A stretch of 64,000 nt of DNA from Catellatospora sp. KI3. Lineage in GTDB: Bacteria; Actinomycetota; Actinomycetes; Mycobacteriales; Micromonosporaceae. Every line of letters starts with the position of its first letter. Within the stretch, counting starts at the first letter, position 1. Location: contig NZ_JASAMB010000004.1 of assembly GCF_029948125.1 (NCBI RefSeq), positions 310,001 to 374,000 on the forward strand, written 5' to 3'. Both the position numbers and the translations under genes were made by a program. The notes under the pieces are model-generated. The model worked only from the letters and a program-made list of their open reading frames with translations. It was not told where the DNA came from and did not search any database. Below are positions 2 to 17,711 of the stretch, piece after piece.

Positions 2-3000
2 TTCTTCGGGGTGTCGCGCCGCGAGGCCGACGTCATGGATCCGCAGCACCGGCTGCTGCTGGAGGTGGCGTGGGAGGCGTTCGAGCACGCCGGCCTGCCG
101 CCCGAGCGCCTGGAGGGCAGCCGCACCGGCGTGTTCACCGGGATCTCCTACACCGACTACATGGAGCGCCTCGCCGAACACCCGGCCAGCCTGGAAGGGT
201 CGGTGCTCACCAACGGCGCGTGCCTGGCCCCGGGGCGCCTGTCGTACCTGCTGGGGCTGCGCGGCCCCAGCATCGCCGTCGACACGGCCTGCTCGTCGTC
301 GCTGATGGCGCTGCACCTGGCCGGGCAGGCGCTGCGCGAAGGCGACTGCGACGTCGCCCTGGCCGTCGGCGTGTCGCTGATGCTGTGGCCGCGGGCCGCG
401 CAGGCGTTCGCGCGGATGGGCATGCTGTCGCCCACCGCCCGCTGCCGCACCTTCGACGCGGCCGCCGACGGCTTCGTCCGGGGCGAAGGGTGCAGCGCGG
501 TGGTGCTCAAGCTGCTGCCCGACGCGCTGCGCGACGGCGACCGGATCCTGGCCGTCGTACGCGCCTCGGCCGCCAACCAGGACGGCCACTCCGACGGCAT
601 CGCCGCTCCGTCGCCGGACGCGCAGCGGGCGCTGCTGGCCGAGACCGTCGCCCGCGCCGGTATCGCCGCCGCCGACGTCGGCCTGGTCGAAGCGCACGGC
701 ACCGGCACCCCCGTCGGCGACCCGATCGAGTTCGGCGCGCTGGCCGACGTCTACGGCACCGGCGAGCACCGCTGCGCGCTCGGCTCGGTGAAGACCAACC
801 TCGGCCACCTCGAACCCGCCGCCGGGCTCACCGGCCTGATCAAGGCGGTGCTGTGCCTGCAGCACGGGCAGATCCCGGCCAACCTCCACTTCGACCGGTG
901 GAGCGGCGACATCGACGCCGCCGCGACCCGCTTCTTCGTACCCGGCGAACTCACCGCCTGGCCGGTGCCGGACCGGGAACGGCTGGCCGCCGTCTCCTCG
1001 TTCGGCTACGCCGGCACCAACGTGCACGTCATCCTCGAGCAGGCGCCGCCGCCGCGCGGCAACCGGCCCGACGTGCTCGCCCGCATCCCCGCCAGCCGCC
1101 GCCCCGAGCCCGGCGGCGCCCGGCCGCCCCATCCGGCGCCGGTGACGCTGCTGGTCGCCGCGGGCTCGGCCGCCGCCCTGCCGCGGGCGGCGACCCGGCT
1201 CGCCGACTGGCTGACCGGTCCCGGCCGGGGCAGCCCGCTGCACGACGTGGCCCACACCCTGGCCCGGCACCGGTCAGCCGGGCGGGGCCGGCTGGCCGTG
1301 ACCGCCGCCGACCGCGCCGGGCTGGTCGAGGCGCTGCGGGCGCACGCCGCCGGGCAGGCGCATCCGGCGGTGGTCGCCGGCGCCGTCGGCGCGGGTGTCA
1401 CCCGGGCGCCGGTGTTCGTGTTCTCCGGGCAGGGCTCGCAGTGGGCCGGCATGGGCCGTGCCCTGCTGCGCACCGAACCCGCCTTCGCGCACACCCTCAC
1501 CGAGCTGGACGGCCTGATCCGCGCCGAGGCCGGGTTCTCCCCGCTGGAGCTGATCGACTCCGGGCAGGACGTCACCGGACCGGGGCAGGTCCAGCCGACG
1601 CTGTTCGCCATCCAGGTCGCGCTCGCCGCGGCCTACGCCGCCTACGGGGTACGGCCCGCCGCGGTCATCGGCCACTCCATGGGCGAGGTGGCCGCGGCCG
1701 TGGTCGCCGAGGCGCTGAGCCCGGCCGACGGTGTCGCCGTCATCTGCCGCCGCTCGGCGCTGCTGGCCCGGATCGCCGGCACGGGCGGCATGGCCACCGT
1801 CAGCCTCGACCGCGCCCAGGTGCAGACCCGGCTGGTGGAGGCCGGGGTGAGCGGGTCGGTATCGGTGGCCGTGCTCGCCGGGCCGTCCTCTACCGTCATC
1901 GCCGGTGACGCCGGGCAGGTCCGGGCGCTGACCGAGGACTGGCAGTCGGCCGGAGTCCCCGCGCACCTCATCGCGGTCGATGTCGCGTCACACTCGCCGC
2001 AGGTCGAGTCGCTGCTGCCGGAGTTGGCGCAGTCGCTGGCCGGGCTGCGGCCGAGGCCGCCGCGGGTGCGGCTGTACTCCACCGCCGTCGCCGGGGACGA
2101 TCCCGCGCCGCTGATGGACGCCGCCTACTGGTGCGCGAACCTGCGCCAGCCGGTCCGCTTCGCCGACGCGGTCACCGCCGCGGCCGCCGACCGGCACAGC
2201 GTCTTCGTCGAGGTCGCCCCGCACCCGGTGGTCACCCACGCCGTGCACGGCTGCCTGCGCGGCCGCGCCGCCGACCCGGTCGTGCTGGGCACGCTGCGCC
2301 GCGACGCCGACGACCCGACCGGTTTCAGCCACGCGCTCGCCGCCCTGCACTGCCACGGCGTGCCGGTCGACTACAGCGCCCGCTACCCGGGCCGGGTCCT
2401 CACCGACGCCCCCGCCCTCACCTTCGACCGCCGCCGGCACTGGATCGATCCGCTCCCGGAGCGGGCCGCGGCGACCGGCGCCGGGCTGCCCGGGGCGCAC
2501 GTACCGCTGCCCGACGGCGACCTGTGGCACGGTGACGCCGGCACCGGCGCGCTGCCGTGGCTGGCCGACCACCGCGTCCACGGCGACCCGGTCCTGCCCG
2601 GGGCAGGCTTCGCCGCGCTGGCGCTGACCGCCGCCGCGGCCGCGTTCGGCACCGCGCCCGCCGACGTGCACATCACCGGCCTGCGCCTGGACCGCATGCT
2701 CACCCTCGGCGAGCACACCGCCGTCAGCACGCTCGTCGAACGGCGCGATCCGCGCCGGGCCACGGTGACGGTGTCCACCCGCGACGCCGACGGCGGCTGG
2801 GTACGCCACGCCGCCGCCGTCCTGCACTCCGGCAACCAGGACCCGGCCGAACCCGTCGCCGACCTGGCCGCGCTGCTCGACGCGCACCCGGTCGCGGGCG
2901 ACCCCGCCGAGCTGTACGCCTCGATGCGCCGCCGCGGCATCGAGCACGGCCCCGCCTTCGCCGCCGTACAGACCCTGCACCGCAGCGCCGACGGCACCGG

Positions 3001-6000
3001 CGCACTGGCCCGGCTGCGCCAGCCCGGCCAGGCCGGTGACCTCAGCCCGCACCCGGTCCTGCTCGACGCCGCCCTGCAGACCCTGGTCGCGACCCTGGAC
3101 ACCGTTGCGGGCACCGGCCTGGTGCTGCCGGTCGGCCTGGGCACGCTGCGCCTGCACGGCGACCCCGCCACGGCGGTGTACTGCCAAGCCCGGCGCACCG
3201 GCGCGGACGGCACCCGCCTGACCGGATCGCTGCGGCTGCTGGACGCCCACGGCCGGACCGTGCTCACCGCGGAGCGGATCGAACTGGCCCGCCGGCAGAG
3301 CCCCGTGCCCGACCCCGGCCGCTGGTTCCTGGAACCGCACTGGCGCCCCGCGGTACGACCGCCGGACGGATCAGACGCGGTGCGTACCGGACACTGGCTG
3401 GTCCTCGGCGAGCGTGACACCGCCTTCTGCGGCCTGGTCGCCCGCGGCCTGCGGCTCGTCGGCGCCAGCGCCAGCACGCTGTGCGTGAAACTCGGCGACG
3501 ATCCACTCGGGCCGATGGGCGACGCGCTGGCCGACCGCTGGGCCGCCCGCACCGTCGTCCCGCAGGCGGTGGTGCTGATCTGCGACGACCGACCCGCCGC
3601 CGACGCCGCCGCGACGGCGCTGGCCCGCGTCCGGCGGCTGCTCGACGCGGTGCAGGCGATGGTCGCGGCCTGGGCCGACCCGCCCCGGCTGTACGTGGTC
3701 ACCCGGGGCGCGCACCGCGTCGAGCCCGCCGACCGGGTCGACCTCGCGCTGGGCGCACTGCGCGGCGTGCTGCGGGCGCTGGCCTGGGAGCATCCGCGAC
3801 TGCGCGCCACCCAGATCGACGTGGCCGGCCAGGACGTGCCCGGACTGGTCGCCGAACTGCTCGCCGCAGTGGCCGACGACGAGGTGGCGCTGCGGGGCCC
3901 GCAGCGCTTCGCGGCGCGGCTCGCCTACGCGCCGGTGACGGCGCAGCACCGCCGGGCCGCCACCACCCGCACCGTGCGGTTCGGACAGGATGCGTTCCGG
4001 CTGCGCGCCGCGCAGCTCGGCGACCTGGAGAGCCTCGTGCTGACCGGCGCCGAGCGGCGGCCGCCCGGCGCCGGCGAGGTCGAGATCAGGGTGACCACCG
4101 CGGGCGTCAACTTCCGCGACGTGCTGACCACGCTCGGGCTGCTGCCGGGCCGCCACCCCGGCGACGACGTCGGTGCCCGGATCGGGTTCGAGTGCGCGGG
4201 GGTCGTCAGCGCCGTGGGCGAGCACGTCACCGACCTGCGACCCGGTGACGTGGTGGCCGCCGTGGACCTGCGCGGCGGCGCGTTCGGCTCGTTCGTCACC
4301 GTGCCCGCCGACATGGCCGTCCGCGTGCCGCGGCAGCTGGACCCGGCCGACGCCGCCGGGGTGCCCGCCGTGTTCCTGACCGCCTGGTACGCGCTGCACG
4401 ACGTGGCGCGGCTCGCCGAGGGCGAGCAGGTGCTGATCCACTCGGCGGCCGGCGGCACCGGCCTCGCCGCGATCGCCGTCGCCCGGCTGCTCGGCGCCCG
4501 GGTGCTCGCCACCGCCGGCACCGAGGAGAAGCGGGCGTACCTGCGCGGCCTGGGCATCGAGCACGTCATGGACTCGCGCGGGCTGGACTTCGCCGAGCAG
4601 ACCCGCGCCGCCAGCGGGGGCGGCGTGGACGTGGTGCTCAACTCCCTGTCCGGAGCCGCGGTACGGGCAGGGCTGGAGACGCTGCGCCCGTTCGGCCGGT
4701 TCGTGGAGCTCGGCGTACGCGACATCATCGCCGACGCGCCGCTGGGCCTGGCCCCGCTGCGGCACAACGTCACCATCAGCGCCGTCGACCTGATCGAGGT
4801 GCAGCGGCAGCGGCCGCAGCGCTTCGCCGCGATGCTGCGCGAACTCATGGCCCACATCGCCGCCGGGCGGCTCAGCCCGCCCCGGACCCGCCGCTTCCCG
4901 CTCCTGGCCGCGCCCGAGGCCATGCGGACGATGGCGGGCGGCCGGCACCTGGGCAAACTGGTGCTCACCGTGCCCGACAGCGGCACCGCCGAGGCGGTGT
5001 ACCCGGCGCGGAGCCCGGTCCGCGCCGACGGCGCGTACATCGTGTCCGGGGGCCTGCGCGGCGTGGGTCTGGCCACCGCCGAGTGGCTGGCCGCGGCCGG
5101 GGCGAGGCGGCTGGTCCTCAACGGCCGCGGCGAACCCGGACCGCAGGTCCGGCAACGACTCGCCGCGCTGGTCCAGGGCGGCACCGACGTGGTGGTCGTG
5201 CGCGGCGACATCTCCGAACCGGGGGTCGCCGAGCGGCTCGTGGCCGCCGCGGGCGCCGACGGGGCGGTACTGCGCGGGGTGGTGCACTCGGCGATGGTCC
5301 TCGCCGACGCGGCGGTGACCAACGTCGACGACGCGGACCTGTCGCGGGTCTGGGCGCCGAAGGTGACCGGAGCCTGGCGGCTGCACGAGGCCGTGGGCGA
5401 CCGGCCGCTCGACTGGTTCGTGGCCTACTCCTCGATGTCGGCGCTGATCGGCAACGGCGGGCAGGCCGGGTACGCGGCGGCGAACTCGTGGCTGGACACC
5501 TTCGCCGCGTGGCGCAGCGCGCAGGGGCAGCCCACCCTGGCCGTGGGCTGGGGGCCGTGGGGCCAGACCGGCGCCGCGACCGACTTCGCCGAGCGCGGGT
5601 ACGAGACCATCCCCACCGAGGAGGGCCTGCGGGCACTCGGCGAGCTGCTGACGCACGGCCGGGTCCATACCGGCGTGATCCCCGGTCCGCCGCAGAGCTG
5701 GCTGCGCGGCCCGGCCCGCGACTGCGCGCTGTTCGCCGAACTCGTCGACGCCGCCCCCGCAGCCGCGGGCACCGCGGACATCGTCGCCCGGCTGCGGGAG
5801 CTGCCCGGCGGCCCCGAGCGACAGGTCGCGCTGGAAGGGCACCTCGCCGAGCACATCCGCACCGTGCTGCAGCTGGGTGCGGCCACGCTCGACCCGCAGA
5901 CCCCGCTGCGGTCGCTGGGCTTCGACTCGCTGCTGACGCTGGAGCTGCGCAGCAGGCTCGAGAACGAGCTGAGGATCCGGCTGCACGCGAAGTTCGTCTG

Positions 6001-6082
6001 GCACTATCCGACGCTGGCCGCGCTGGCCGCCGCGATCGCCGAGCAACTGGACCTGGACCGCGAGCGGCCGACCAAGGACTGA
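2..6082 (+). CDS. Type I polyketide synthase, MAS-like single module KS-AT-DH-ER-KR-ACP (5' end missing)
   Basis: The frame is open from base 2, so the gene begins upstream and roughly the first 70 residues of the ketosynthase are absent. Domains in order: KS with active Cys in DTACSSS (codon 290-292) and His in EAHGTGT (695-697) and KTNLGH; AT with GHSMGE (Ser codon 1676-1678) and VASHSPQ; DH with [11 protein letters not shown] and the LLDAALQ Asp; ER with nucleotide motif AAGGTGLAA (about 4445); KR with GGLRGVGLA and catalytic Ser/Tyr/Asn in YSSMS...GYAAAN; ACP with GFDSLL (Ser 5927-5929). There is no thioesterase. Domain order and the AT and ACP signatures match mycocerosic-acid-synthase-like iterative PKSs, which build (methyl-)branched fully reduced chains; extender choice (VASH rather than HAFH or YASH) cannot be settled from motifs. 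All reductive residues look intact. The product is unknown. Confidence 0.95.
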
Positions 6083-6135: not shown

Positions 6136-6522
6136 GTGACTGAACGACGTGTGATCCTCAGCGGTTCGACCTTCGAGGAGCAGATCGGCTATGCCCGTGC
6201 CGTGGTCGACGGCGACCGCGTGTACGTGTCCGGGACGACCGGCTTCGACTACGCCACCATGACGATCTCCGACGACGTGGTGGAGCAGGCCGAGCAGTGC
6301 CTGCGCAACATAGGTGCCGCGCTGGCCGAGGCGGGCTGCACGTTCGCCGACGTGGTGCGGGTGCGCTACCTGCTGCCCGACGCCGCCGACTTCGAGCCCT
6401 GCTGGCCGGTGCTGCGCCGCTACTTCGGCGACGTCCGCCCGGCCGCGACGATGCTGGTGTGCGGGCTCTCCTCCCCCACCATGAAGATCGAGATCGAAGT
6501 CGACGCGCATCTGCCGAGATAG
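6136..6522 (+). CDS. RidA/YjgF-family protein
   Basis: This 128-aa protein has the Rid fold signature (VYVSGTTGFDY near residue 35, ending KIEIEVDAHLPR), full length for the family. Canonical RidA deaminates reactive enamine/imine intermediates and needs an Arg before the final strands. Here the equivalent stretch reads RPAATMLVCG, so that Arg seems absent and the protein probably belongs to a Rid subfamily without 2-aminoacrylate deaminase activity. The GTG start is chosen because homologues begin just before the RRVILSGS block; no clear Shine-Dalgarno is visible. It lies 53 bp after the PKS stop on the same strand and may be co-transcribed, but a link to polyketide synthesis is only a guess. 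Confidence 0.85.
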   Translation: MTERRVILSGSTFEEQIGYARAVVDGDRVYVSGTTGFDYATMTISDDVVEQAEQCLRNIGAALAEAGCTFADVVRVRYLLPDAADFEPCWPVLRRYFGDVRPAATMLVCGLSSPTMKIEIEVDAHLPR

Positions 6523-6530
6523 GCCGCTGA

Positions 6531-6560
6531 CGGCCCGGCGACGGTGCTGCCGCCGGGCCG
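6531..6560. terminator. Hairpin between convergent genes
   Basis: A perfect 10-bp stem (CGGCCCGGCG / CGCCGGGCCG) with a 10-nt loop sits directly after the RidA stop and before the convergent pentapeptide gene. No U-tract follows, as is usual in actinomycetes. It probably serves both strands. Confidence 0.65.
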
Positions 6561-6581: not shown

Positions 6582-8054
6582 TCAGCAGCCGCCGTCGCCC
6601 TGGCGCCGGAGCTCCGATGTAGCCCGCTGGGCTGGCTTCGGCAGGCTGGACACGGCTCCGTAGGCGTTCTTCTTCGCCGCGGCGACCAGGTCATCGCCCT
6701 GCTTGCGAGTGAGCAGCAGCGCCTGGACCGCATAACGCGTGCCGTCGGGGGTCGAGTCGTCGCCCAGGATGACGTAGGACACCGACCAGCCACCCGATTT
6801 GTCCGGTACGGCGGGAAGCCACGACGGGAAGTACGGGTTGTCGCCGGCCACCAGGATCACCACCATCCCGGGCGGGATGTACCCCTTGCCCCGGACCGTA
6901 CCGCACCTGGGCAGTTGCTGACCGGAGTTGATACTGATCTTCGCGCGTACCACCGGCGTCGGCGGCGGAGGCGGCGGCGGCGCGGACACGTCCGGGCTCG
7001 GCGTGCCTGCCGCACCGGTCGGCGGCAGCGGGCTGACCACCGCCGACGGCGCCGGTGTCGGCGCCGGCGAGGACTCGGGCCCGGTGACTCTCGGGCACGG
7101 TGCGGGATCCGGCTTGTCCGACTTCCAAGCGGTATGACCGGCGCCGAAGCTCTCGGGAGACGTCGCCGACGCCTCGAACTCCAGCGCCTCCCCTTCGGGC
7201 AGGTCGACCACCTTTTCGATCCGCGCACCCTGCCAGATCGCGCCGCCCAGGTCCGCCTCCAGCGTGAAAGGCCGGTCCGCGCGGTGTACGAAGTGCGCGT
7301 TGGTGAAGTCCGCGCCGCGCATGTCGACCCGGGTCAACGGCGCGTCGCCGCCGGCCACCTTGAAGACCGCGCCCGCCAGGTAGGCACCGCGCACCCGGGC
7401 CCCGGCGAACCTGGTGTCCTGCAGGAACGCCGAGTTCATCAGGGCGCAGTCAAGGTTCGCGCCGGTCAGATCGGTGGCCAGCAGCCAGGAGCCCGACAGG
7501 TCCGCGTAGCTGAGATCCTTGCCCGCCAGCTGGGCGAACGGCAGGCACAGGGCGGAGAGGTCGAGCCGGTGCCCGGTCGAGGCGCCCTTCTCCTCGGCGC
7601 GCTGCTGCCCGTACAGCTCGACCGCCGCCGCCAGCGCCGCCCGGACGTCTCGCTGTGCCGGGTCGTTCACCCACGCCGGCGAACACCCGGCCTGTGCGGG
7701 CCGGGGCACCGTGCCCGACAGGTACGCGGCCAGCAGATCGATCACCGCCGTGCGCTCCTCCGGGAACTCGTCGACGAGCTGCCGCAGCGCGCGCACCCCG
7801 GCGGTACGCGAGCCGGTGCTGGGCGCGGCGAGCAGCCCTGCTGCGGTCGCGAACCGATCGGCACGCTGCTGCTGCGTGGCGGCCCGATCCGAGTGCCAGG
7901 CGATCAGCAGCCCAGGAATGCTGACCACCAGCGCCACGATCGTCGCGATGACGATCGTCCACTCCCTGCCCTCCTTCGCCCTGTCCGACTTGCTCCCCGA
8001 CGTCGAGCGGTCGGACTCCGCCGAAGTCGATGGATCTTCATCACGCTTCGTCAT
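6582..8054 (-). CDS. Membrane-anchored pentapeptide-repeat protein with Pro-rich linker and C-terminal unknown domain
   Basis: The 490-aa product has a charged N-terminus, one transmembrane helix (about residues 33-53), then a helical stretch resembling the region before pentapeptide repeats in actinobacterial membrane proteins (LVDEFPEERTAVIDLLAAYL). Pentapeptide repeats of A(D/N)LxX type follow (about 175-255, e.g. YADLSGSWLLATDLTGANL). A Pro/Ser/Ala-rich linker (about 325-375) leads to a C-terminal domain with KISINSGQQLPRCGTVRGKGYIPPG. Pentapeptide coils are usually binding surfaces; no enzyme residues are evident. Function is unknown. Confidence 0.85.
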   Translation of the reverse strand: MTKRDEDPSTSAESDRSTSGSKSDRAKEGREWTIVIATIVALVVSIPGLLIAWHSDRAATQQQRADRFATAAGLLAAPSTGSRTAGVRALRQLVDEFPEERTAVIDLLAAYLSGTVPRPAQAGCSPAWVNDPAQRDVRAALAAAVELYGQQRAEEKGASTGHRLDLSALCLPFAQLAGKDLSYADLSGSWLLATDLTGANLDCALMNSAFLQDTRFAGARVRGAYLAGAVFKVAGGDAPLTRVDMRGADFTNAHFVHRADRPFTLEADLGGAIWQGARIEKVVDLPEGEALEFEASATSPESFGAGHTAWKSDKPDPAPCPRVTGPESSPAPTPAPSAVVSPLPPTGAAGTPSPDVSAPPPPPPPTPVVRAKISINSGQQLPRCGTVRGKGYIPPGMVVILVAGDNPYFPSWLPAVPDKSGGWSVSYVILGDDSTPDGTRYAVQALLLTRKQGDDLVAAAKKNAYGAVSSLPKPAQRATSELRRQGDGGC

Positions 8055-10364: not shown

Positions 10365-11288
10365 ATGTCGACCATGCCGGAGTTCCGGGGCGCGCTGCTG
10401 GCCATGCAGGGTGAGACCGTGCTCGCCGAGGTCGCCGCCGCGGGCCACTCCGCCCGCACGCGCTTCCAGATCGCTTCGGTGAGCAAGCAGTTCACCGCCG
10501 TCGCGGTGCTGCTGCTGGCGCAGCGCGGCCTGCTGGGGCTGGACGACCCGATCGACCGCTGGGTCGACGACCGCCCCCCGTCCTGGGACGGCATCACGCT
10601 GCACCACCTGCTCACGCACACGTCGGGGCTCGGGCACTGGGGCGAGTATCCGATGATCGATCTGTTCCAGCCGGTGCCGCCGGGTGAGCTGCTGGCGGCG
10701 TTCCGCCAGGTGGAGCCGCTGTTCGCACCTGGCGGCGGCTGGCACTACAGCAGCCCGGGGTACGTGCTGCTGGCGCACGCGGTGGCGCGGGCCGCCGACC
10801 GGCCGTACCGCGACGTGCTCACCCAGGATATCTTCGAGCCGCTGGGGATGGCCGACACCTTCGTCGGGTCGCCCGGCGACCGGCCGGACATCGCCCGCGG
10901 CCACGGCGCCGACGGCGAACCGCTGCCCTCCTACGAGCTGGATGTCGTCGCGATGGGCGCCGGTGACCTCTGGTCGACCACCGGTGACCTGCTCCGCTGG
11001 CTCGACGGCCTGCGGACCGGGCAGCTGCTCGACGCCCGGCACCGTGAGCTGATGCTGACCGAGCACGCGGCGACCGGCCACGAACCGGATTCGCGCGGGT
11101 ACGGATACGGCTGCTTCGTCGGCCTGTTCGGCGACGAGGCGTGGTTCCACCACTCCGGTGGGAACTCCGGCTTCCGGTCGTTCGCGGCCTGCCTGCCCGC
11201 CTCGAACCGCCGGATCGTGGTGCTCAGCGACTCCGAGGCCACGAACATGGCGGTGCTCGACGAACTGCTCACCGCCACGCTCACCTGA
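10365..11288 (+). CDS. Serine hydrolase of the class C beta-lactamase/penicillin-binding family
   Basis: A 307-aa serine beta-lactamase-like protein (PF00144 type). The nucleophile motif SxxK is SVSK at residues 38-41. The second motif reads YSS (128-130) where YxN is usual. LLTHTSGL is typical of the family, and an HSGG block near residue 265 stands in for the third motif. There is no signal peptide, so it is probably a cytoplasmic esterase or peptidase rather than a resistance enzyme. The 3' end of this gene is partly duplicated at 17420-17524, 6 kb downstream (see repeats). Confidence 0.85.
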   Translation: MSTMPEFRGALLAMQGETVLAEVAAAGHSARTRFQIASVSKQFTAVAVLLLAQRGLLGLDDPIDRWVDDRPPSWDGITLHHLLTHTSGLGHWGEYPMIDLFQPVPPGELLAAFRQVEPLFAPGGGWHYSSPGYVLLAHAVARAADRPYRDVLTQDIFEPLGMADTFVGSPGDRPDIARGHGADGEPLPSYELDVVAMGAGDLWSTTGDLLRWLDGLRTGQLLDARHRELMLTEHAATGHEPDSRGYGYGCFVGLFGDEAWFHHSGGNSGFRSFAACLPASNRRIVVLSDSEATNMAVLDELLTATLT

Positions 11289-11437
11289 CCACCCCGGCAC
11301 CGGACGCGCCCGGGCGGCGGCATCCGCCGTACTGACCTGTGCGACCACTGCACCTGGCTGGCCGATACCCGCCGCTCCCACGACACCGTCGCCGACAGCT
11401 ACCACGAGGTGGTCCGCGACACGCTCGCGCAGACGCC
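11052..11437 (+). repeat. Direct repeat copy A (beta-lactamase 3' end plus methyltransferase 5' end)
   Basis: This segment contains the intact 3' end of the beta-lactamase gene, the intergenic spacer, and the first about 30 codons of a methyltransferase. The same order recurs at 17420-17711, where the beta-lactamase part is deleted internally and the methyltransferase is complete. The two copies flank about 6 kb of unrelated DNA. Confidence 0.85.
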
Positions 11438-11631: not shown

Positions 11632-12375
11632 GTGCCGATATTTCAGGTCCTCGGGCCGGTCGAGGTGACGGGGCAGGGCGGACCCCCTGACCGCATGCTC
11701 CCCGCCAAACCCCGCACCCTCCTGGCGGCGCTGCTGCTGCGGCCGAACCAGTGGGTGCCGACGGCCCACCTCGTCGAAACCCTGTGGGAGCGCCCGCCCA
11801 GGTCGGCGCACGGCAACCTGCGCACCTACGTATGGCAGCTGCGGACGCTGCTCGCCGGCACGGCCGACACGGACCGACTGGACAGCCGGCTCGGGCTGTA
11901 CCGGCTCGCCGTGCAGCCCGGCGAGATCGACATGCAGGTCTTCACCGAGCTGTCCGACCTCGCCGCGGAGGCCCTGGCCGCCGGCGAGGCGGCGGCGGCA
12001 GAGCGGCTGCTCCTCACGGCGTTGCGGCTGTGGCGCGGCGACCCCTTCGAGGACGTGCCTGCGCTGCTGTCCCAGCCGAAGGTGGTCCGGCTGCGCGAGC
12101 AGCGGTGGTCGGCGTCGGAGATGCTGGCCGAGGCGCGGCTGATGCTCGGGCAGTCGCAGCGCGCCGTCGACGACCTGCGCCCGCTGCTGGCCGAGCAGCC
12201 GTTCCGTGAGCAGATGTGGATCCTGCTGATGCACGGCCTGACCCAGCTCGGCCGCCGCGCCGACGCCCTGGCGGCCTACCGCGAGGTGTCCCACCTGCTC
12301 AGCAGCGAGCTGGGCCTGGAGCCCGGACCACGGCTGCGCGACGCGCAGCGCATGATCCTGACCGGCGCGGCTTGA
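11632..12375 (+). CDS. SARP/AfsR-type transcriptional activator (OmpR-like DNA-binding plus BTAD)
   Basis: This 247-aa protein has the size and layout of small Streptomyces antibiotic regulatory proteins: a winged-helix Trans_reg_C domain (residues 1-90, FQVLGPVEV and LRTYVWQLR) and a bacterial transcriptional activation domain (about 95-240, ending ELGLEPGPRLRDAQRMI). SARPs activate secondary-metabolite promoters by binding heptamer direct repeats spaced 11 bp apart. Exactly such an array lies upstream of the peptide gene at 15712. GTG start at 11632. The gene converges with the TPR gene (15 bp between stops). I infer that it drives the peptide operon. Confidence 0.88.
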   Translation: MPIFQVLGPVEVTGQGGPPDRMLPAKPRTLLAALLLRPNQWVPTAHLVETLWERPPRSAHGNLRTYVWQLRTLLAGTADTDRLDSRLGLYRLAVQPGEIDMQVFTELSDLAAEALAAGEAAAAERLLLTALRLWRGDPFEDVPALLSQPKVVRLREQRWSASEMLAEARLMLGQSQRAVDDLRPLLAEQPFREQMWILLMHGLTQLGRRADALAAYREVSHLLSSELGLEPGPRLRDAQRMILTGAA

Positions 12376-12390
12376 TCGGCGCGGGCTGAC

Positions 12391-14454
12391 TCAGACAAGC
12401 TGCAGGACGGCGTCGCGCTCGGCCAGCACGTCCGGGTCGTCCGGTGCCAGCCGCAGCGCCTGTTCCAGATCGCGCAGCGCGTCGGCGGGTCGGCCCAGCG
12501 CCAGCAGGGCGGTGGCCCGGTTGTAGAGCAGCGCCGGATCGTCGCCCTGCGCCAGCGCCGCGTCGAGGTGCTCGGCGGCCGCCGCCGCGTCACCGGCCTC
12601 GAATGCCAGCACCGCCAGACCCGCCCACGCCGCCGGCAGCGCCGGATCGAGCTCCAGCGCCCGCCGGTAGCCGGCCGCGGCACCGGCCGCGTCACCGGCC
12701 GCGGCCGCCAGCTCGCCGAGCAGGCAGTGCAGGTGGGCGTGGCCGGGGTCCAGGGCGAGGCCCGCGTCGACGTCGGCTCGCGCGGCGGCGTGGTCACCCA
12801 TCGCCACCAGCACCCCGGCCCGGTTCACGTACGCGTCGAGCCAGTCCGGGTCGAGTTCCAGCACATAGCTGAAGTCGGCCAGGGCCGCCTCCAGCTCGCC
12901 CAGCCCGAACAGCACGTCGGCCCGGTTGTAGTAGACCTCCGGGAACGGCGGGCTGAGCCGGATCGCCTCGGCGTACTCGCGCAGGGCCTCCTCGTCGTGG
13001 CCCATCCGGTGCAGCAGATTCGCCATCTCGAACCGGTATTCGGGGTAGTTCGGGTCCTGCGCCACGACCGTGCGGTAGTCGGCGAGCGCCTCATCGAGCC
13101 GGCCCAGCCCCGACAGCACCCGGGCCCGGTTGTTGACCAGCACCGACCGGTGCAGCAGGTGCACCTGGTCGCCCAGGTCTCGGTCCAGCCGCTCGATACC
13201 GTCGTTGACCAGGCCCAGTGCGTTGGCCGGGTTGGCCAGGTGGGTCTCGATCAGTGCCAGCCCGTTCTGCTCGAAGACCAGCCCGAAGCTCTCCGAGTCC
13301 CCGTTGACCTTGGCAAGCAGCATGCTGAACGCCATCGCCTGGTTGATCCAGCCCTTGGCCTTCTGGTGGTCGCGGCGCTCCGGCTCGTGGTGGCGGGTGT
13401 AGAGCATCGCGGTGGCGTACGCGGCCTGCTGGTGCACCCGGGGGTTGGTGCTGACGGCCCGGCACTCGTCGTACAGGGCCTCGGCCTCCAGCGGCCTGCC
13501 CAGCGCGGCCAGCGAGGTGGTCATCTTGGTGGTGTACGTCCACCACAGGTCCTCGCGGACCTTCCAGTCGACCACGGCCCGGCCCCGGTGCCCGAAGTCG
13601 ACGGTGGCGTCGTAGAAGCCCATGTCCACGCAGTAGTCCAGCGCCGCGCGCAGCGCCTCACCGCCCAGCCCGGCCGGGTCCGACCCCCGCTCCAGGTGGT
13701 ACGGGATCGCGCCCAGGCGCAGCGACCAGTCACCGGACTCCAGCTCGGCCACCCGCGCGTCGTGCAGCGCGACCCGCTCCGCGTCGCCCAGCCGCTGATA
13801 GGCCTCGACCAGCTCGGCCACGTCGCTGGTGCAGTCGCTCTCGACATACCGCGCCGCCAGCGCCGCGTCGCCGCCGGTCACCACCGGTGCGGGCGCCCGC
13901 GTCACGGCCAGCTCCACGGTGTATCGCTCCAGCCCCGCCACCAGGTCCGGGTGCACCGGGGCCGCACCCCCGCACAGCACCAGCGTGAGCAGGGCCGGGT
14001 CCAGCCGCCGCAGCAGCACCGACAGCAGCTCGGCGTCGGTCGGGTCGGCGTGCTCGATGTTCTCGACCACCAGCACCCTGCCCGGTTCGGCGGTCTCGCG
14101 CAGGTAGTCGCGCAGCAGCTCGGTCAGCCCGTGCGCGATGCGCAGCGTCCGCTTGCGGGAGTAGAACCTGGTCCGCTCGGCCGGCCCGGCCAGCGAGGTC
14201 AGCGTGTGCTTCTCGGCCGGGATCAGGCGCTCCAGCTCGGGGGCGATGGTGAGCAGCTCGATGTCGCGCTGGTGCACCAACTCGGGCCGGGTCGCCATCA
14301 TGCGCTCGGCCAGCGGCCGGAACAGCTCCGACGCGCCGGTGTACGGCCCGCGCCGGCGCCGGTGGGCGTCCACCGTGGGCAGCAGCTCGGGGCGGCCGAG
14401 CGCGGTGGCGGCACGGTCGTGTCGGCGACCGCCGATGATCCTCAGATGCGACAT
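12391..14454 (-). CDS. TPR protein with degenerate STAND-like N-terminal region
   Basis: The 687-aa product contains a Walker-B-like block VLVVENIEHADPTDAELL (about residues 125-145) typical of AfsR/STAND ATPases, but no GxxxxGK[ST] P-loop anywhere before it, so nucleotide hydrolysis is doubtful. The C-terminal half (about 400-687) is a run of tetratricopeptide repeats (YNRADVLFGLGELEAALADF and similar). It reads like the back half of a large SARP regulator, with the SARP half encoded separately at 11632. The ATG at 14454 (GTG alternative at 14457) follows the M50 stop by about 13 bp, so translation is probably coupled. Possible roles: scaffold for peptide maturation, or peptide receptor. Confidence 0.8.
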   Translation of the reverse strand: MSHLRIIGGRRHDRAATALGRPELLPTVDAHRRRRGPYTGASELFRPLAERMMATRPELVHQRDIELLTIAPELERLIPAEKHTLTSLAGPAERTRFYSRKRTLRIAHGLTELLRDYLRETAEPGRVLVVENIEHADPTDAELLSVLLRRLDPALLTLVLCGGAAPVHPDLVAGLERYTVELAVTRAPAPVVTGGDAALAARYVESDCTSDVAELVEAYQRLGDAERVALHDARVAELESGDWSLRLGAIPYHLERGSDPAGLGGEALRAALDYCVDMGFYDATVDFGHRGRAVVDWKVREDLWWTYTTKMTTSLAALGRPLEAEALYDECRAVSTNPRVHQQAAYATAMLYTRHHEPERRDHQKAKGWINQAMAFSMLLAKVNGDSESFGLVFEQNGLALIETHLANPANALGLVNDGIERLDRDLGDQVHLLHRSVLVNNRARVLSGLGRLDEALADYRTVVAQDPNYPEYRFEMANLLHRMGHDEEALREYAEAIRLSPPFPEVYYNRADVLFGLGELEAALADFSYVLELDPDWLDAYVNRAGVLVAMGDHAAARADVDAGLALDPGHAHLHCLLGELAAAAGDAAGAAAGYRRALELDPALPAAWAGLAVLAFEAGDAAAAAEHLDAALAQGDDPALLYNRATALLALGRPADALRDLEQALRLAPDDPDVLAERDAVLQLV

Positions 14455-14467
14455 CACTGGCTACCTT

Positions 14468-15652
14468 TCAGCTGGTCAGATGGGTCGGGGCGGCGGGGCG
14501 GAGGCGGCGGGCGCGCATCGCGAGGTAACCGGCGAGTGCGAACTGGCCGAGCATCAGCGTCAGGAAGACCACCGAGTCGAGCACCTGCCCGCCGTCGCCG
14601 GCGGTCAGGCCGTGCCAGAGCATCGTCAGCAGCCGCCACAGCGCAGGCACCCCGAACAGCAGCAGCGTCGCGGTGGTGAGGACGTAGCCGAACAGCAGCA
14701 GCCACGAGTACCAGCGTCCGACCTCCCTGTCGCGCGGGTGCAGGCCGGTCAGGTCGAGCCCGGGGCGGCCGGCCAGTCTGCGGAACCTGTCGCGCAGGAT
14801 GCGCCGGGCGGCGGCCTGGAGGTCCTGGCAGCCCAGCACGGTCACCGCGACGACATACAGGTCGGTCTGCAGGTGGAAGTAGAACTGCCAGAGGAAGCGC
14901 AGGAACGTCGCGAAGGCCAGGGCCAGGCAGATCGCGCCGAGCAGGCCAACCTTGCCGTCCGGGCCGAGCGTCGCCGCGGCGACCAGCGTCAGCACCGCGA
15001 TCACCAGCAGGTCGGCCAGCATGCCGGCCAGGATCGGCAGGTAGCGGCGGCGGCGGGGGAACACCACCAGCCCGTCCAGGCTGGTCTCGAAGACCACGAA
15101 GTACAGCCGGCGGGAGATGCGCAGCCGCGAGTGCAGGCCGAGCCGGCGTCCGGCCAGGGCATGGAACGACTCGTGCACGAGGATCAGCGGGAACTGGCCC
15201 AGGAAGAAGGTCAGCGCGATCGCGGTCGTGTAGTCGGTGTAGAACAGGTTCGCCACCCGGGGGATCAGTTCCGGGGTGCTCGCCATCGCGACGGCCGCCG
15301 CCGCCAATAGGAGCCCGTGACAGACCCAGCCGACCGGCGAGAACAGCCAGCGCCCCAACCGCTGCCAGCGGGGCGGCTTCGGGTCCGCGATGACCTCGTC
15401 CTGCGCGGTGAACTCCAGCTCGGTCAGCACACCCAGGAACTCGTCGAGGTCGACGGGCTCGCCGTAGGTGCGGGCGTACCAGTCGGCGGCGGCGTGCGGC
15501 GGCACACCTGCCACGAGCTGCTGGAGCAGGGCCGCGCCGTCCGGCGGGAACACGCCGTAGGAGTCGATGTCGACCCGGCCGACCACGACGTCATCTCCGT
15601 CGGGCAGGAAGGTGAGATCGTGCAGCCGCAGCGGCTCGGAAAGCTGTGTCAT
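14468..15652 (-). CDS. M50-type membrane zinc metalloprotease with PqqD-like N-terminal domain
   Basis: A 394-aa protein. The N-terminal about 90 residues have the helical-wing pattern of a PqqD-like/RiPP recognition element (SYGVFPPDGAALLQQLVAG and DLDEFLGVLTELEF). Several membrane segments follow. The HExxH motif is HESFH at residues 160-164 inside a membrane segment (LILVHESFHALAGRRLG). Asp214 in AGMLADLL is a candidate third zinc ligand, as in site-2 proteases. The ATG at 15652 has GGAGG upstream and lies 59 bp after the stop of a 37-aa peptide gene. Such fusions occur in RiPP loci, where they are thought to bind the leader and cleave or export the peptide; that role is inferred here. Confidence 0.85.
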   Translation of the reverse strand: MTQLSEPLRLHDLTFLPDGDDVVVGRVDIDSYGVFPPDGAALLQQLVAGVPPHAAADWYARTYGEPVDLDEFLGVLTELEFTAQDEVIADPKPPRWQRLGRWLFSPVGWVCHGLLLAAAAVAMASTPELIPRVANLFYTDYTTAIALTFFLGQFPLILVHESFHALAGRRLGLHSRLRISRRLYFVVFETSLDGLVVFPRRRRYLPILAGMLADLLVIAVLTLVAAATLGPDGKVGLLGAICLALAFATFLRFLWQFYFHLQTDLYVVAVTVLGCQDLQAAARRILRDRFRRLAGRPGLDLTGLHPRDREVGRWYSWLLLFGYVLTTATLLLFGVPALWRLLTMLWHGLTAGDGGQVLDSVVFLTLMLGQFALAGYLAMRARRLRPAAPTHLTS

Positions 15653-15672
15653 CTGAGCCTCCGGGGGTAGGC

Positions 15673-15705
15673 GGCCCGGGATCCGCCGGCTGGCGGACCC
15701 GGGCC
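15673..15705 (-). terminator. Intercistronic hairpin after the peptide gene (attenuator)
   Basis: A 14-bp stem (GGCCCGGGTCCGCC with GGCGGATCCCGGGCC, one bulged A, loop AGCC) sits between the peptide stop and the M50 start. Partial terminators here typically make precursor-peptide transcript more abundant than downstream enzyme transcript. Confidence 0.65.
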
Positions 15706-15711
15706 GGTGCA

Positions 15712-15825
15712 TCAGGACGCGGCCGGGGCCGAGAACGGCCAGCACGGCGGCGGGTAGCCGTAGAGCTGGTCGGCGGCCGTGGTCAGGCGGACAGTGCCCG
15801 CCTTGCGAACGACGATCTTCTTCAT
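15712..15825 (-). CDS. Precursor-like 37-aa peptide
   Basis: This small gene encodes a basic leader-like start (MKKIVVRKAGTVRLTTAAD) and an aromatic, Pro-rich tail (LYGYPPPCWPF, then SAPAAS) with a single Cys. The Shine-Dalgarno GAGGAGG is 8-10 nt before the ATG at 15825, the best ribosome site in the neighbourhood. Upstream lie three SARP-type heptamers and a -10-like hexamer; downstream lie a strong hairpin and an M50 protease gene with a PqqD-like domain. This context is that of a RiPP or signal-peptide precursor. No modification enzyme other than the protease is present nearby, so maturation may be cleavage only or may use enzymes from elsewhere. I do not recognise a named family. Confidence 0.75.
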   Translation of the reverse strand: MKKIVVRKAGTVRLTTAADQLYGYPPPCWPFSAPAAS

Positions 15826-15856
15826 GGGAATCACCTCCTCGCCAGCGATGGGTCCG

Positions 15857-15900
15857 ATCCTGCCGGGTTCACGTCCATCAATCGTCCATCGTCAATCCAT
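15857..15900 (-). promoter_or_regulatory. SARP operator: three 11-bp-spaced heptamers plus -10-like hexamer
   Basis: Read on the minus strand: ATGGATT (15900-15894), ATGGACG (15889-15883) and ATGGACG (15878-15872), each separated by 4 bp, i.e. a strict 11-bp period. The hexamer CAGGAT (15862-15857) follows after 9 bp. This is the arrangement SARP activators bind, with repeats ending about 8 bp before the -10. It would direct transcription of the peptide operon with a short leader. Confidence 0.72.
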
Positions 15901-15973
15901 TCGCAGGTCGGCGCGCACCGCCGCGCGGCGTACCACCGACAACGGGTCACCCTGGACTTCTCGACCGTCGAGT

Positions 15974-16165: not shown

Positions 16166-16542
16166 TCGCCCTGGCGGAGGCCGACGGTGACATCGACTGG
16201 GACGCCCAGGTCGACGCCACGATCGTGCGGGTGCACCAGCATGCGGCTCGGCCGTCCGCGCAAGCGACCGGACCCGCTGACCGGCGACAAGGCGTACTCG
16301 TCGCGGGCCAACCGGAAGCGGCGCGGCCGAAACGGCGGCAGACCACCGAACTTCGACCGCGCCGCATACCGCAAATACAACAAGGTAGAACGCGGGTTCA
16401 ACCGGCGCAAGCACTGGCGCGGACTCGCCACCCGCTTCAACAAGCTGGCCAGCCACTACCAAGCCACACTCGACCTCGTCGAGATCCTGGACTGGCTACT
16501 CGCCGTACCCGACGACATGATCCGCGAGAGAGAACCTAGTCC
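16166..16542 (+). pseudogene. IS5-family transposase remnant (internally deleted)
   Basis: The start carries GDIDWDAQVDATIVRVHQ, typical of the first catalytic-Asp region of IS5 transposases. Near 16250 the frame changes and continues with TGDKAYSSRANRKRRGRNG and RAAYRKYNKVERGFNRRK, which are the end of the DDE core. The intervening catalytic part is gone, so the element is inactive. Terminal inverted repeats were not found. Confidence 0.75.
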
Positions 16543-17045
16543 ACCCAGGAGATGAGGAACTTCTCGTATGGGCCGGCGCCGTACTGGCAGTTCACGATCC
16601 CGCCGCCCCAGTGGTTCTCCGCGGTGAAGCTACTGGCGTCCATGCGCAGGAAGACGTTGGCGAACGTGATCGATTCGATGGTGAATCCGGAGGGGTCGTA
16701 GGCGAACTTGAACCGCTCGTGGTCGCCGTCGGGGCGGCCGTACTGGCAGTTCACGATCCCGCCGCCGGCGTCGGTGGCGGCGGTGACGTCGAAGGCGACC
16801 ATGCGCAGGAAGACGTTGGGGAAGCGGACGGATTCCACGGAGAACGACAGGTCGGGCTGCTTCCTCAGGATGAACCTCTCGAAGTTGCCAACATAGGTCT
16901 GGCAGTTCACCTCTCCGCCGCCGGGGCCCGAGAGCGTGGCGTACCCCTTGCTGTCCATGCGCAGGTAGCGGTTGAAGTGCTTCGACCGGATGGAAACCGG
17001 CCTTCCCGCGGTGTTGGTGGAGATGTCGGTGAGGCTCAGGTCCAT
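16536..17045 (-). CDS. Beta-trefoil (fascin/AbfB-like) protein, 169 aa
   Basis: Three repeats of about 43 residues share the pattern VFLRMD...GGGIVNCQYG...ERFKF (first copy NRYLRMDSKGY...GGGEVNCQTY), which is the layout of a three-fold beta-trefoil similar to fascin-like or arabinose-binding AbfB domains. These usually bind sugars or proteins. There is no signal peptide. The ATG at 17045 is chosen over an upstream in-frame start because AGAGAGGG lies 5 nt before it. It is a single-domain protein inside the island; partner and ligand are unknown. Confidence 0.7.
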   Translation of the reverse strand: MDLSLTDISTNTAGRPVSIRSKHFNRYLRMDSKGYATLSGPGGGEVNCQTYVGNFERFILRKQPDLSFSVESVRFPNVFLRMVAFDVTAATDAGGGIVNCQYGRPDGDHERFKFAYDPSGFTIESITFANVFLRMDASSFTAENHWGGGIVNCQYGAGPYEKFLISWVD

Positions 17046-17355: not shown

Positions 17356-17419
17356 AACAGCCCACACCAAGCGACTGCGGCTTCCACAGTGTTCCGACCG
17401 GCCTCATGCCACGACAACG

Positions 17420-17524
17420 ATGCTGACCGAGCACGCGGCGACCGGCAGCGAACCGGATTCGCGCGACTCCGAGGCCACGAACATGGCGGTGCTCAACGAA
17501 CTGCTCACCGCCACGCTCGCCTGA
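17420..17524 (+). pseudogene. Remnant of beta-lactamase 3' end (copy B)
   Basis: The sequence matches the gene at 10365-11288 from its bases 11052 to 11098, then jumps about 130 bp to 11229-11288. A few substitutions are present (CTCGAC to CTCAAC near the end). It lacks the start and catalytic region. Confidence 0.85.
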
Positions 17525-17711
17525 CCACTCGTGGCGGCGGGTACGGTGCCCGGCGGCACCGGACCGATCGTGCGCGGGCGGCGGCACCCGCCGCCGTACT
17601 AACCTTTGCGGCCGTGGACTCCGACACCTGGCTGGCCGATACCCGCCGCTCCTACGACACCGTCGCCGACAGCTACCACGAGGTGGTCCGCGACATGCTC
17701 GCGCAGACGCC
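17420..17711 (+). repeat. Direct repeat copy B (beta-lactamase 3' remnant plus methyltransferase 5' end)
   Basis: Imperfect second copy of 11052-11437 in the same orientation. The methyltransferase is intact here and the beta-lactamase part is internally deleted, the mirror image of copy A. Confidence 0.85.

Follow-up and report, generated by a model that had tools for sequence, protein, structure and literature searches.

A candidate SARP-controlled operon for RiPP-like peptide maturation in Catellatospora sp. KI3 and its recurrence in other bacteria

Organization of the locus

The window analyzed here is a stretch of 64,000 nucleotides from Catellatospora sp. KI3 (contig NZ_JASAMB010000004.1, positions 310,001 to 374,000). 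It contains a gene group comprising a gene for a 37-aa precursor-like peptide, a gene for an M50-type metalloprotease with a predicted RRE (recognition element of RiPPs, ribosomally synthesized and post-translationally modified peptides), a gene for a tetratricopeptide repeat (TPR) protein and a convergent gene for a small SARP regulator (Table 1). All of these parts had been predicted from the sequence alone, and all were found at the positions given in the original prediction. The TPR gene starts either with GTG at 14457 or with ATG at 14454, and the tail of the peptide contains TTAADQLYGYPPPCWPF. The M50 protein and the profiles of the peptide and of the TPR protein each matched the source genome (8.2 Mb in 96 contigs) only once.

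Table 1. Features of the peptide locus (window coordinates)
Feature	Position	Strand	Basis
Left copy of the imperfect direct repeat bracketing the cassette	11227..11437	+
Small SARP (Trans_reg_C + BTAD), convergent with the TPR gene	11632..12375	+	Pfam/NCBIfam scans
TPR protein, about 687 aa, its N-terminal domain degenerate and STAND/AAA-like	12391..14457	-	Pfam, predicted structure
M50-type intramembrane metalloprotease with fused RRE, 394 aa	14468..15652	-	Motifs, alignment, predicted structure
Within the M50 protein: RRE, about residues 10-80; HESFH, residues 160-164; conserved TD(264)xY
Strong hairpin, past the peptide stop and ahead of the M50 start	15672..15706	-	Strong fold at the same place in 93/110 loci
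37-aa precursor-like peptide MKKIVVRKAGTVRLTTAADQLYGYPPPCWPFSAPAAS	15712..15825	-	Open reading frame and recurrence in homologous loci
Peptide leader MKKIVVRKAGTVRLT (followed by the tail TAADQLYGYPPPCWPFSAPAAS)	15781..15825	-
Shine-Dalgarno sequence AGGAGG, 8 nt ahead of the peptide ATG	15834..15839	-	Read from sequence
-10-like hexamer CAGGAT, 10 nt past the last repeat	15857..15862	-	Read from sequence
Proposed SARP operator: three 7-bp direct repeats (AATGGAT, GATGGAC, GATGGAC) with an 11-bp period	15873..15901	-	Spacing-specific, tied to SARP-bearing loci
Right copy of the imperfect direct repeat bracketing the cassette	17463..17711	+

Recurrence and distribution of the operon

We compared the neighbourhoods of 40 M50 homologues (up to 20 kb), of the best 80 of 183 further ones (up to 17 kb) and the window, 121 loci in total. 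After removal of duplicates about 110 distinct loci remained; the list of 112 loci referred to below counts one pair (L050/L148) twice. Since the loci were selected by their M50 proteins (the best 80 of 183), the counts speak for the close group.

As a rule, the M50 gene was preceded by a gene for a peptide with the leader KKIxVRKxGxVRLT, which was found in 119 of the 121 neighbourhoods. The search for the leader motif revealed 164 peptides in 118 loci, on the same strand as M50 and upstream of it; in the remaining locus, L074, the M50 start had been mis-called, so its peptide was added separately. The motif occurred at no other place in the six-frame translation of the 121 loci (4.23 Mnt, both strands). 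The two loci without the peptide, L075 and L076, carry the most distant of all M50 proteins compared (35 and 31 percent) and also lack the TPR gene. The conserved leader with a variable tail that had been anticipated for the neighbourhoods of M50 and TPR homologues was thus found. M50/TPR pairs without a conserved small open reading frame (ORF) at their side were sought, and every pair examined has one.

In the converse search, all 27 loci fetched through the peptide profile (E<=6.1e-7, 397 genomes of the order) contain an M50 gene, eight of these loci being already known through M50. A match at E<=0.1, mostly weak, was obtained in 92 of the 397 genomes. Past about E=7e-4 true relatives (G229, G293, G829, G202, G151) were mixed with chance matches; a second match in G430 lies outside the fetched loci. 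Among 396 genomes from the phylum, strong matches were restricted to the genome of the window and one more of its family.

Of 354 genomes belonging to the family, 99 have an M50 homologue of some kind, and ten other genomes of the same genus have none. The hosts belong to Actinomycetota, with the addition of two Ktedonobacter strains (Chloroflexota; L122, L137), and the distribution of the peptide-M50-TPR family seems patchy. It should be mentioned that locus L217, from another class, contains M50, TPR and a Tyr/Cys peptide.

Structure of the peptides and the hairpin behind their genes

The leader has a consensus of 14 residues, K-K-I-x-[VI]-R-K-x-[GE]-x-[VI]-R-L-T, and is followed by a tail of 5-25 residues. 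Thr14 was present in all 164 copies, though the search pattern permitted Ser too. The search pattern demanded Arg6, so that its constancy in these copies is no result; it was also constant in an alignment of 33 chosen peptides. All 116 distinct peptides contain Tyr, the first one exactly at +7 from the leader Thr in 99 of them, and 115 contain Cys, the first at +11 in 43 and at +4 in 27 (that is, four after or three before the Tyr when the latter is at +7). Both residues occur together in 163 of the 164 tails and neither in the 14-residue leader, which is partly fixed by the search pattern.

Seven distinct loci contain more than one copy of the peptide gene: ten in Phytomonospora endophytica (L148) and 7, 6, 6, 6, 2 and 2 in the others. 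Within a locus the tails of tandem copies are mostly, not always, different. The ratio of non-synonymous to synonymous substitution rates (dN/dS) of the leader was 0.26 when the 111 pairs of tandem paralogues were pooled, with individual loci ranging from 0.19 to 0.56, and 0.27 in the comparison of species (97 distinct single-copy sequences). Behind the leader it was 0.30 for the next eight codons in paralogues (0.70 in one locus) and 0.59 for the four codons that open the tail when species are compared. The leader is therefore under purifying selection, with mainly synonymous substitutions. A chance ORF is ruled out by these ratios together with the confinement of the motif to the homologous place. 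A ribosomally made precursor with a conserved leader and a variable core, as expected of RiPPs, is thus present.

The hairpin that had been noticed downstream of the peptide gene is real: in the window, a folding energy of -43.6 kcal/mol (z -3.8) was obtained for the 80 nt past the peptide stop. The corresponding 80 nt past the last peptide stop had a mean folding z of -3.2, with 93 of 110 loci below -2, vs a mean of -0.7 and 16 of 110 loci for the 80 nt preceding the peptide gene. We infer that it acts as a partial terminator or mRNA stabiliser; a hairpin so placed would be typical of a precursor that is produced in larger amounts than the enzyme processing it.

A strong hairpin behind the ORF in most loci would also be expected if the small ORF were a non-functional leader or upstream ORF, conserved for the sake of RNA regulation. 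The chance of this is negligible in view of the leader dN/dS of about 0.26 and the multi-copy arrays; moreover, Rfam revealed nothing in the window at gathering scores, and the assignment to an RNA family was rejected on this ground.

Seven Micromonosporaceae loci share the peptide MKKITIRKTGSIKLTTSAPLYCTDCC, with a gene for an HFCD flavoprotein diverging upstream.

An M50-type protease with a predicted leader-binding domain

No meaningful match to Pfam or NCBIfam was obtained for the M50 protein of the window, nor any match for the peptide, so neither could be given a curated family name. PF02163 (M50) did not match the window protein; of two relatives scanned, one reached 17.4 bits (cut-off 27.2) and the other gave no match. 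The assignment to M50 is based on the HExxH motif, the predicted fold and this sub-threshold match of one relative.

The AlphaFold model (mean pLDDT 88.9) contains long helices, and HExxH lies within one of them (142-170). Residues H160, E161 and H164, as well as T263-D264-x-Y266, are the same in all 58 sequences aligned (the structure alignments covered M50 from 57 and TPR from 56 of 80 loci, and the flavin reductase described below from 17 of 34). D264 is proposed to be the third zinc ligand. HExxH in a membrane helix and a distal Asp, by which M50 or site-2 proteases are recognized, are both found here, and Foldseek matched the model to the site-2 protease 3b4r with a probability of 0.82.

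The N-terminus had been described as PqqD-like, and the predicted structure bears this out: residues 14-78 form three strands and three helices, that is, the RRE fold of leader-recognition domains. Apart from this protease, the Foldseek matches of high probability were RREs from lasso-peptide and radical-SAM enzymes of RiPP pathways, including structures solved with the leader peptide (5v1u, TbiB1 with leader, probability 1.00; 6jx3, TfuB1, 0.99; 8vpo, TigE, 0.98). In sequence profiles the RRE match was weak (TfuB1, E=0.73). The model thus supports leader binding by this domain, as had been suggested, and the sequence does so weakly.

RREs of lasso systems bind the leader as a strand. The predicted N-terminal fold of the M50 protein is the same as that of the lasso B1/RRE proteins TbiB1 and TfuB1, in spite of the weak sequence match. 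In contrast to lasso systems, the RRE is fused to an M50 protease, and no lasso cyclase was noticed among the named recurrent neighbours. As in the peptides studied here, the lasso leaders described in the relevant part of PMC10885120 have a Thr near their end.

The TPR protein and the tyrosine of the tail

The TPR protein had been described as STAND-like without a P-loop, in agreement with a match to AAA_16 over residues 80-155 that stays under the threshold (20.9 bits, cut-off 32.6). Its model (pLDDT 96.0) is matched by TPR superhelices, O-GlcNAc transferase among them, and gives no specific functional hint. Pfam revealed no helix-turn-helix (HTH) or other DNA-binding domain in it, only a sub-threshold BTAD match in the TPR part; the N-terminal HTH or catalytic regulator domain typical of RRNPP receptors is therefore lacking. 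PADLOC gave only a weak match of the TPR protein to PrimPol, and a defence system was rejected.

The TPR gene is present in all 112 de-duplicated peptide loci. Sister peptides such as MKKLTVRRLESVKTSAVAAACVVS were found without it in 17 of 56 loci examined, all of them more distant M50 loci; these represent 12 distinct peptides, ten with Cys and one with Tyr. Thus, Tyr was present in 117 of 119 distinct peptides accompanied by TPR vs 1 of 12 without it (Fisher p=3e-13, kinship ignored). Since Tyr goes with TPR, this comparison points to the TPR protein as the partner of the Tyr-bearing tail.

The predicted set of M50, TPR and peptide holds for the close group, but some loci have the peptide with TPR only, and others with M50 only. 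In two loci a peptide with the tail end LWIEWCW and TPR are present and no M50 gene lies within 13-14 kb. The M50-less version (L218, ~7950-8030; L225, ~6455-6540) has MKKMTIRRTGALRLVSGARRLWIEWCW or a near copy directly before TPR, with Trp replacing Tyr.

A sister family (L215, L226, L258, L261, L262, L264, L274, L277, L279 and others) has the RRE-M50 gene without TPR, together with a one-Cys peptide, MKKLxVRRLExVKTSA..C. A second family of sister peptides has the form MKxEIRKVENxRLT.

The promoter repeats and the SARP gene

The three 11-bp-spaced heptamers noted upstream of the peptide gene are real. In the window they score 17 of 21, slightly over the group mean, and when the 300 nt upstream were shuffled 1000 times with dinucleotides preserved, an equal or better triplet appeared eight times. 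Many SARP loci have such triplets about 75-90 nt ahead of the first peptide gene, others farther away, and the heptamer sequence varies between genera. After de-duplication, the mean best triplet score was 15.9 in 53 loci with SARP vs 12.7 in 57 loci without it. A score of at least 15 was reached by 42 of the former vs 13 of the latter (p=1.4e-10, no tree correction), and by 35 of 45 vs 13 of 44 clustered representatives (p=1.3e-7). Spacings of 9, 10, 12 and 13 showed no comparable SARP effect, the largest being that of spacing 9 (p=0.01). CAGNNT is seen at a similar distance in the Lentzea loci and also in L037 and L039 (by eye, uncounted). Heptamers 11 bp apart near a -10 element, the mark of SARP promoters, are thus present, the -10 element being recognized by eye only. 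The tracking of the SARP gene by these repeats supports, at the level of sequence comparison, the suggested SARP control of the operon.

The section of PMC5930380 on the PimR target pimM describes a published form of SARP operator with three heptamers, 4-nt spacers and 11-bp units. The arrangement ahead of the peptide gene is the same; unlike pimM, a pathway regulator gene in that section, the target would be a peptide-protease operon.

The common operon of a short peptide, an M50 protease and a TPR protein resembles the SHP/Eep/RRNPP systems of Firmicutes, which consist of a short peptide, an M50 site-2 protease and a TPR protein. By analogy, M50 could free a short Cys/Tyr pheromone that, on its return, is read by a TPR domain, either in the TPR protein or in the NB-ARC/TPR part of a big SARP, with feedback on the operon. 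The 11-bp repeats at the peptide promoter of SARP loci would permit such feedback, and STAND-type/TPR regulators are encoded in many of the 112 loci (big SARP in 22, LuxR-AAA in 10). At the same time, the leader is charged and not of the signal-peptide type, the protease carries an RRE, the regulators are of SARP or LuxR type, and the TPR protein has neither an HTH nor another DNA-binding domain recognized by Pfam. The regulator type changes between clades while the peptide stays constant, arrays that give one cell 6-10 copies, most of them differing in their tails, fit products better than a single cue, and the flavin enzyme would have no obvious role. We therefore consider signalling possible, though rather unlikely.

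Flavin enzymes next to the operon

A PF01613 flavin reductase gene adjoins TPR in 48 of 112 loci. Before de-duplication there were 51 such loci: in 49 the gene is co-directional behind TPR, with an ATGA overlap in 18, and in two it faces the opposite way. In seven loci, all from Streptosporangium-like genera, an old-yellow-enzyme gene lies behind TPR instead. The source genome has five matches to the flavin-reductase profile, none adjacent to the operon. Being found in under half of the loci, the flavin reductase was rejected as a core part. The suggestion of a protease-only system would suit the window, where no modifying enzyme is adjacent, but not for the loci with a flavin reductase or old-yellow-enzyme gene. 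BluB beside the Dactylosporangium loci and HFCD in the Micromonosporaceae loci may be plain neighbours.

PQQ, mycofactocin and pearlins are products made on peptides. In a similar way, the flavoenzymes encoded nearby could use a small redox or metal-binding product that is built on this peptide as a scaffold, with M50 trimming the scaffold. The position of Tyr, fixed relative to the leader in 99 of the 116 distinct peptides, would suit this, as would the flavin reductase, old-yellow-enzyme or HFCD flavoprotein genes adjoining many loci and the release of pearlins by the M50 proteases TglG and TmoG, reported in the passages of PMC10885120 on these products. We nevertheless regard a scaffold as improbable: the length and the end of the tail vary widely, which is not the case in cofactor precursors, translational coupling is confined to the flavin reductase, in under half of the loci, and neither a radical SAM enzyme nor a peptide aminoacyl-tRNA ligase was recurrent among the neighbours, only part of which were identified.

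Proposed function

Taken together, sequence comparison and structure prediction make it probable, in our moderately confident estimate, that the genes form a RiPP-like peptide-maturation operon with a SARP-switched precursor that would be bound by its leader and cut by the RRE-fused M50 protease, and whose Tyr tail would have the TPR protein as its partner. Judging from the promoter comparison, the small SARP would bind the triple repeats and turn the operon on. The peptide gene would be the most transcribed one, the hairpin cutting read-through or stabilising a short mRNA so that the precursor exceeds the protease. The leader KKIxVRKxGxVRLT, which is alternating and strand-forming, would dock on the RRE of predicted fold, and the intramembrane zinc site, seen as a motif, would cleave near the leader-tail junction, in the LTxAA region, freeing a Tyr/Cys tail of about 10-25 residues. 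The TPR protein would hold or sense this tail via Tyr, which is near-obligatory only where TPR is present. A flavin enzyme, where there is one, might perform a redox step on Cys/Tyr or maintain thiols, and the mature peptide may act outside the cell or as a cue.

Several findings weigh against this interpretation. The Foldseek E-values for the M50 model were all at least 0.041, the two matches with the lowest values were unrelated potassium channels (TM 0.11-0.15), and the RREs were favoured solely by the Foldseek probabilities and the target-normalised TM-scores (0.66-0.71). The choice of loci by M50 similarity limits the counts to the close group, and 39 of 57 more distant M50 loci examined are without a peptide of this pattern. 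Judging from the two loci with peptide and TPR only, M50 is not always needed, and the peptide of L132 is devoid of Cys. The flavin reductase is not found beside the window operon, and no class-defining RiPP modifying enzyme was noticed among the recurrent neighbour clusters, only some of which were identified with Pfam and NCBIfam. Finally, a triplet scoring at least 15 is also found in 13 of the 57 SARP-less loci, and 11 of 53 SARP loci have no such triplet.

The nearest precedents are EpeP of the epipeptides and TglG/TmoG of the pearlins, which the relevant passages of PMC10885120 present as M50 proteases serving small precursor peptides. The likeness lies in the membrane metalloprotease attending a small precursor. 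The present system differs in the RRE on the protease itself and in the TPR partner, and neither a PEARL ligase nor an EpeE-type (epimerase) radical SAM gene was among the recurrent clusters, with only part of the neighbours identified.

Our searches of the open-licence PMC literature brought up no report of an RRE-M50 fusion with a TPR partner, nor of these peptides. The RRE-M50/TPR peptide operon is apparently undescribed and widespread in actinobacteria; this points to a new family of bacterial peptides that undergo processing and would be either products or signals. If so, this widespread family is invisible to Pfam and NCBIfam scans, and 116 distinct peptides are already available. The self-contained leader-binding protease could serve as a tool and SARP as a handle to wake silent clusters, and the role of a TPR protein without a DNA-binding domain for a Tyr/Cys peptide becomes a testable question.

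More speculatively, and in our opinion doubtfully, the operon may represent a new widespread RiPP-like class in which the RRE-protease, the pseudo-STAND TPR protein and a borrowed flavin enzyme link Tyr to Cys or make a redox-active pair of them. The Cys involved would sit three before or four after the fixed Tyr, and the tandem precursor arrays would supply a single cell with a combinatorial set of these peptides.

Origin of the cassette

The whole cassette is bracketed by imperfect direct repeats, pieces of 11051-11437 and 17419-17711 being 80-98 percent identical. They contain the end of a beta-lactamase-fold gene and the start of a methyltransferase gene, as if the cassette had been inserted with duplication of its target. 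A transposase remnant (16241-16555, DDE_Tnp_1_2 match below cut-off) lies just upstream of the peptide promoter. Given these repeats, this remnant and the absence of M50 from ten genus-mates, the cassette was likely acquired by transfer. Carriage by plasmids was considered and rejected, as 23 plasmid records gave distant relatives only (best 41 percent).

Other neighbouring genes

Part of the neighbour clusters were named with profile hidden Markov models and others by eye from their first residues. A B12-type radical SAM gene lies upstream of the peptide in three loci. In L061, L062 and L063 a separate RiPP-type gene group ends right before the peptide gene; in L063, the only one scanned, YcaO was above its cut-off, and an NHLP-like precursor and a B12-type radical SAM were below theirs. 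In L040 and L041 ABC-transporter-like genes (by eye) precede the peptide gene, and the flavin reductase is followed by a histidine kinase, identified with Pfam on L041, and by a response regulator, recognized by eye; export, immunity or sensing are possible roles. Seven Streptomyces/Kitasatospora loci (L079, L080, L081, L083, L106, L130, L143) have a recurrent flanking gene with a sub-cut-off HTH_31 match and an equally recurrent partner that matches no named family. In the window itself, a reducing type I polyketide synthase module is located at 35-6079, and genes for a RidA-like protein and a major facilitator superfamily transporter lie farther on.

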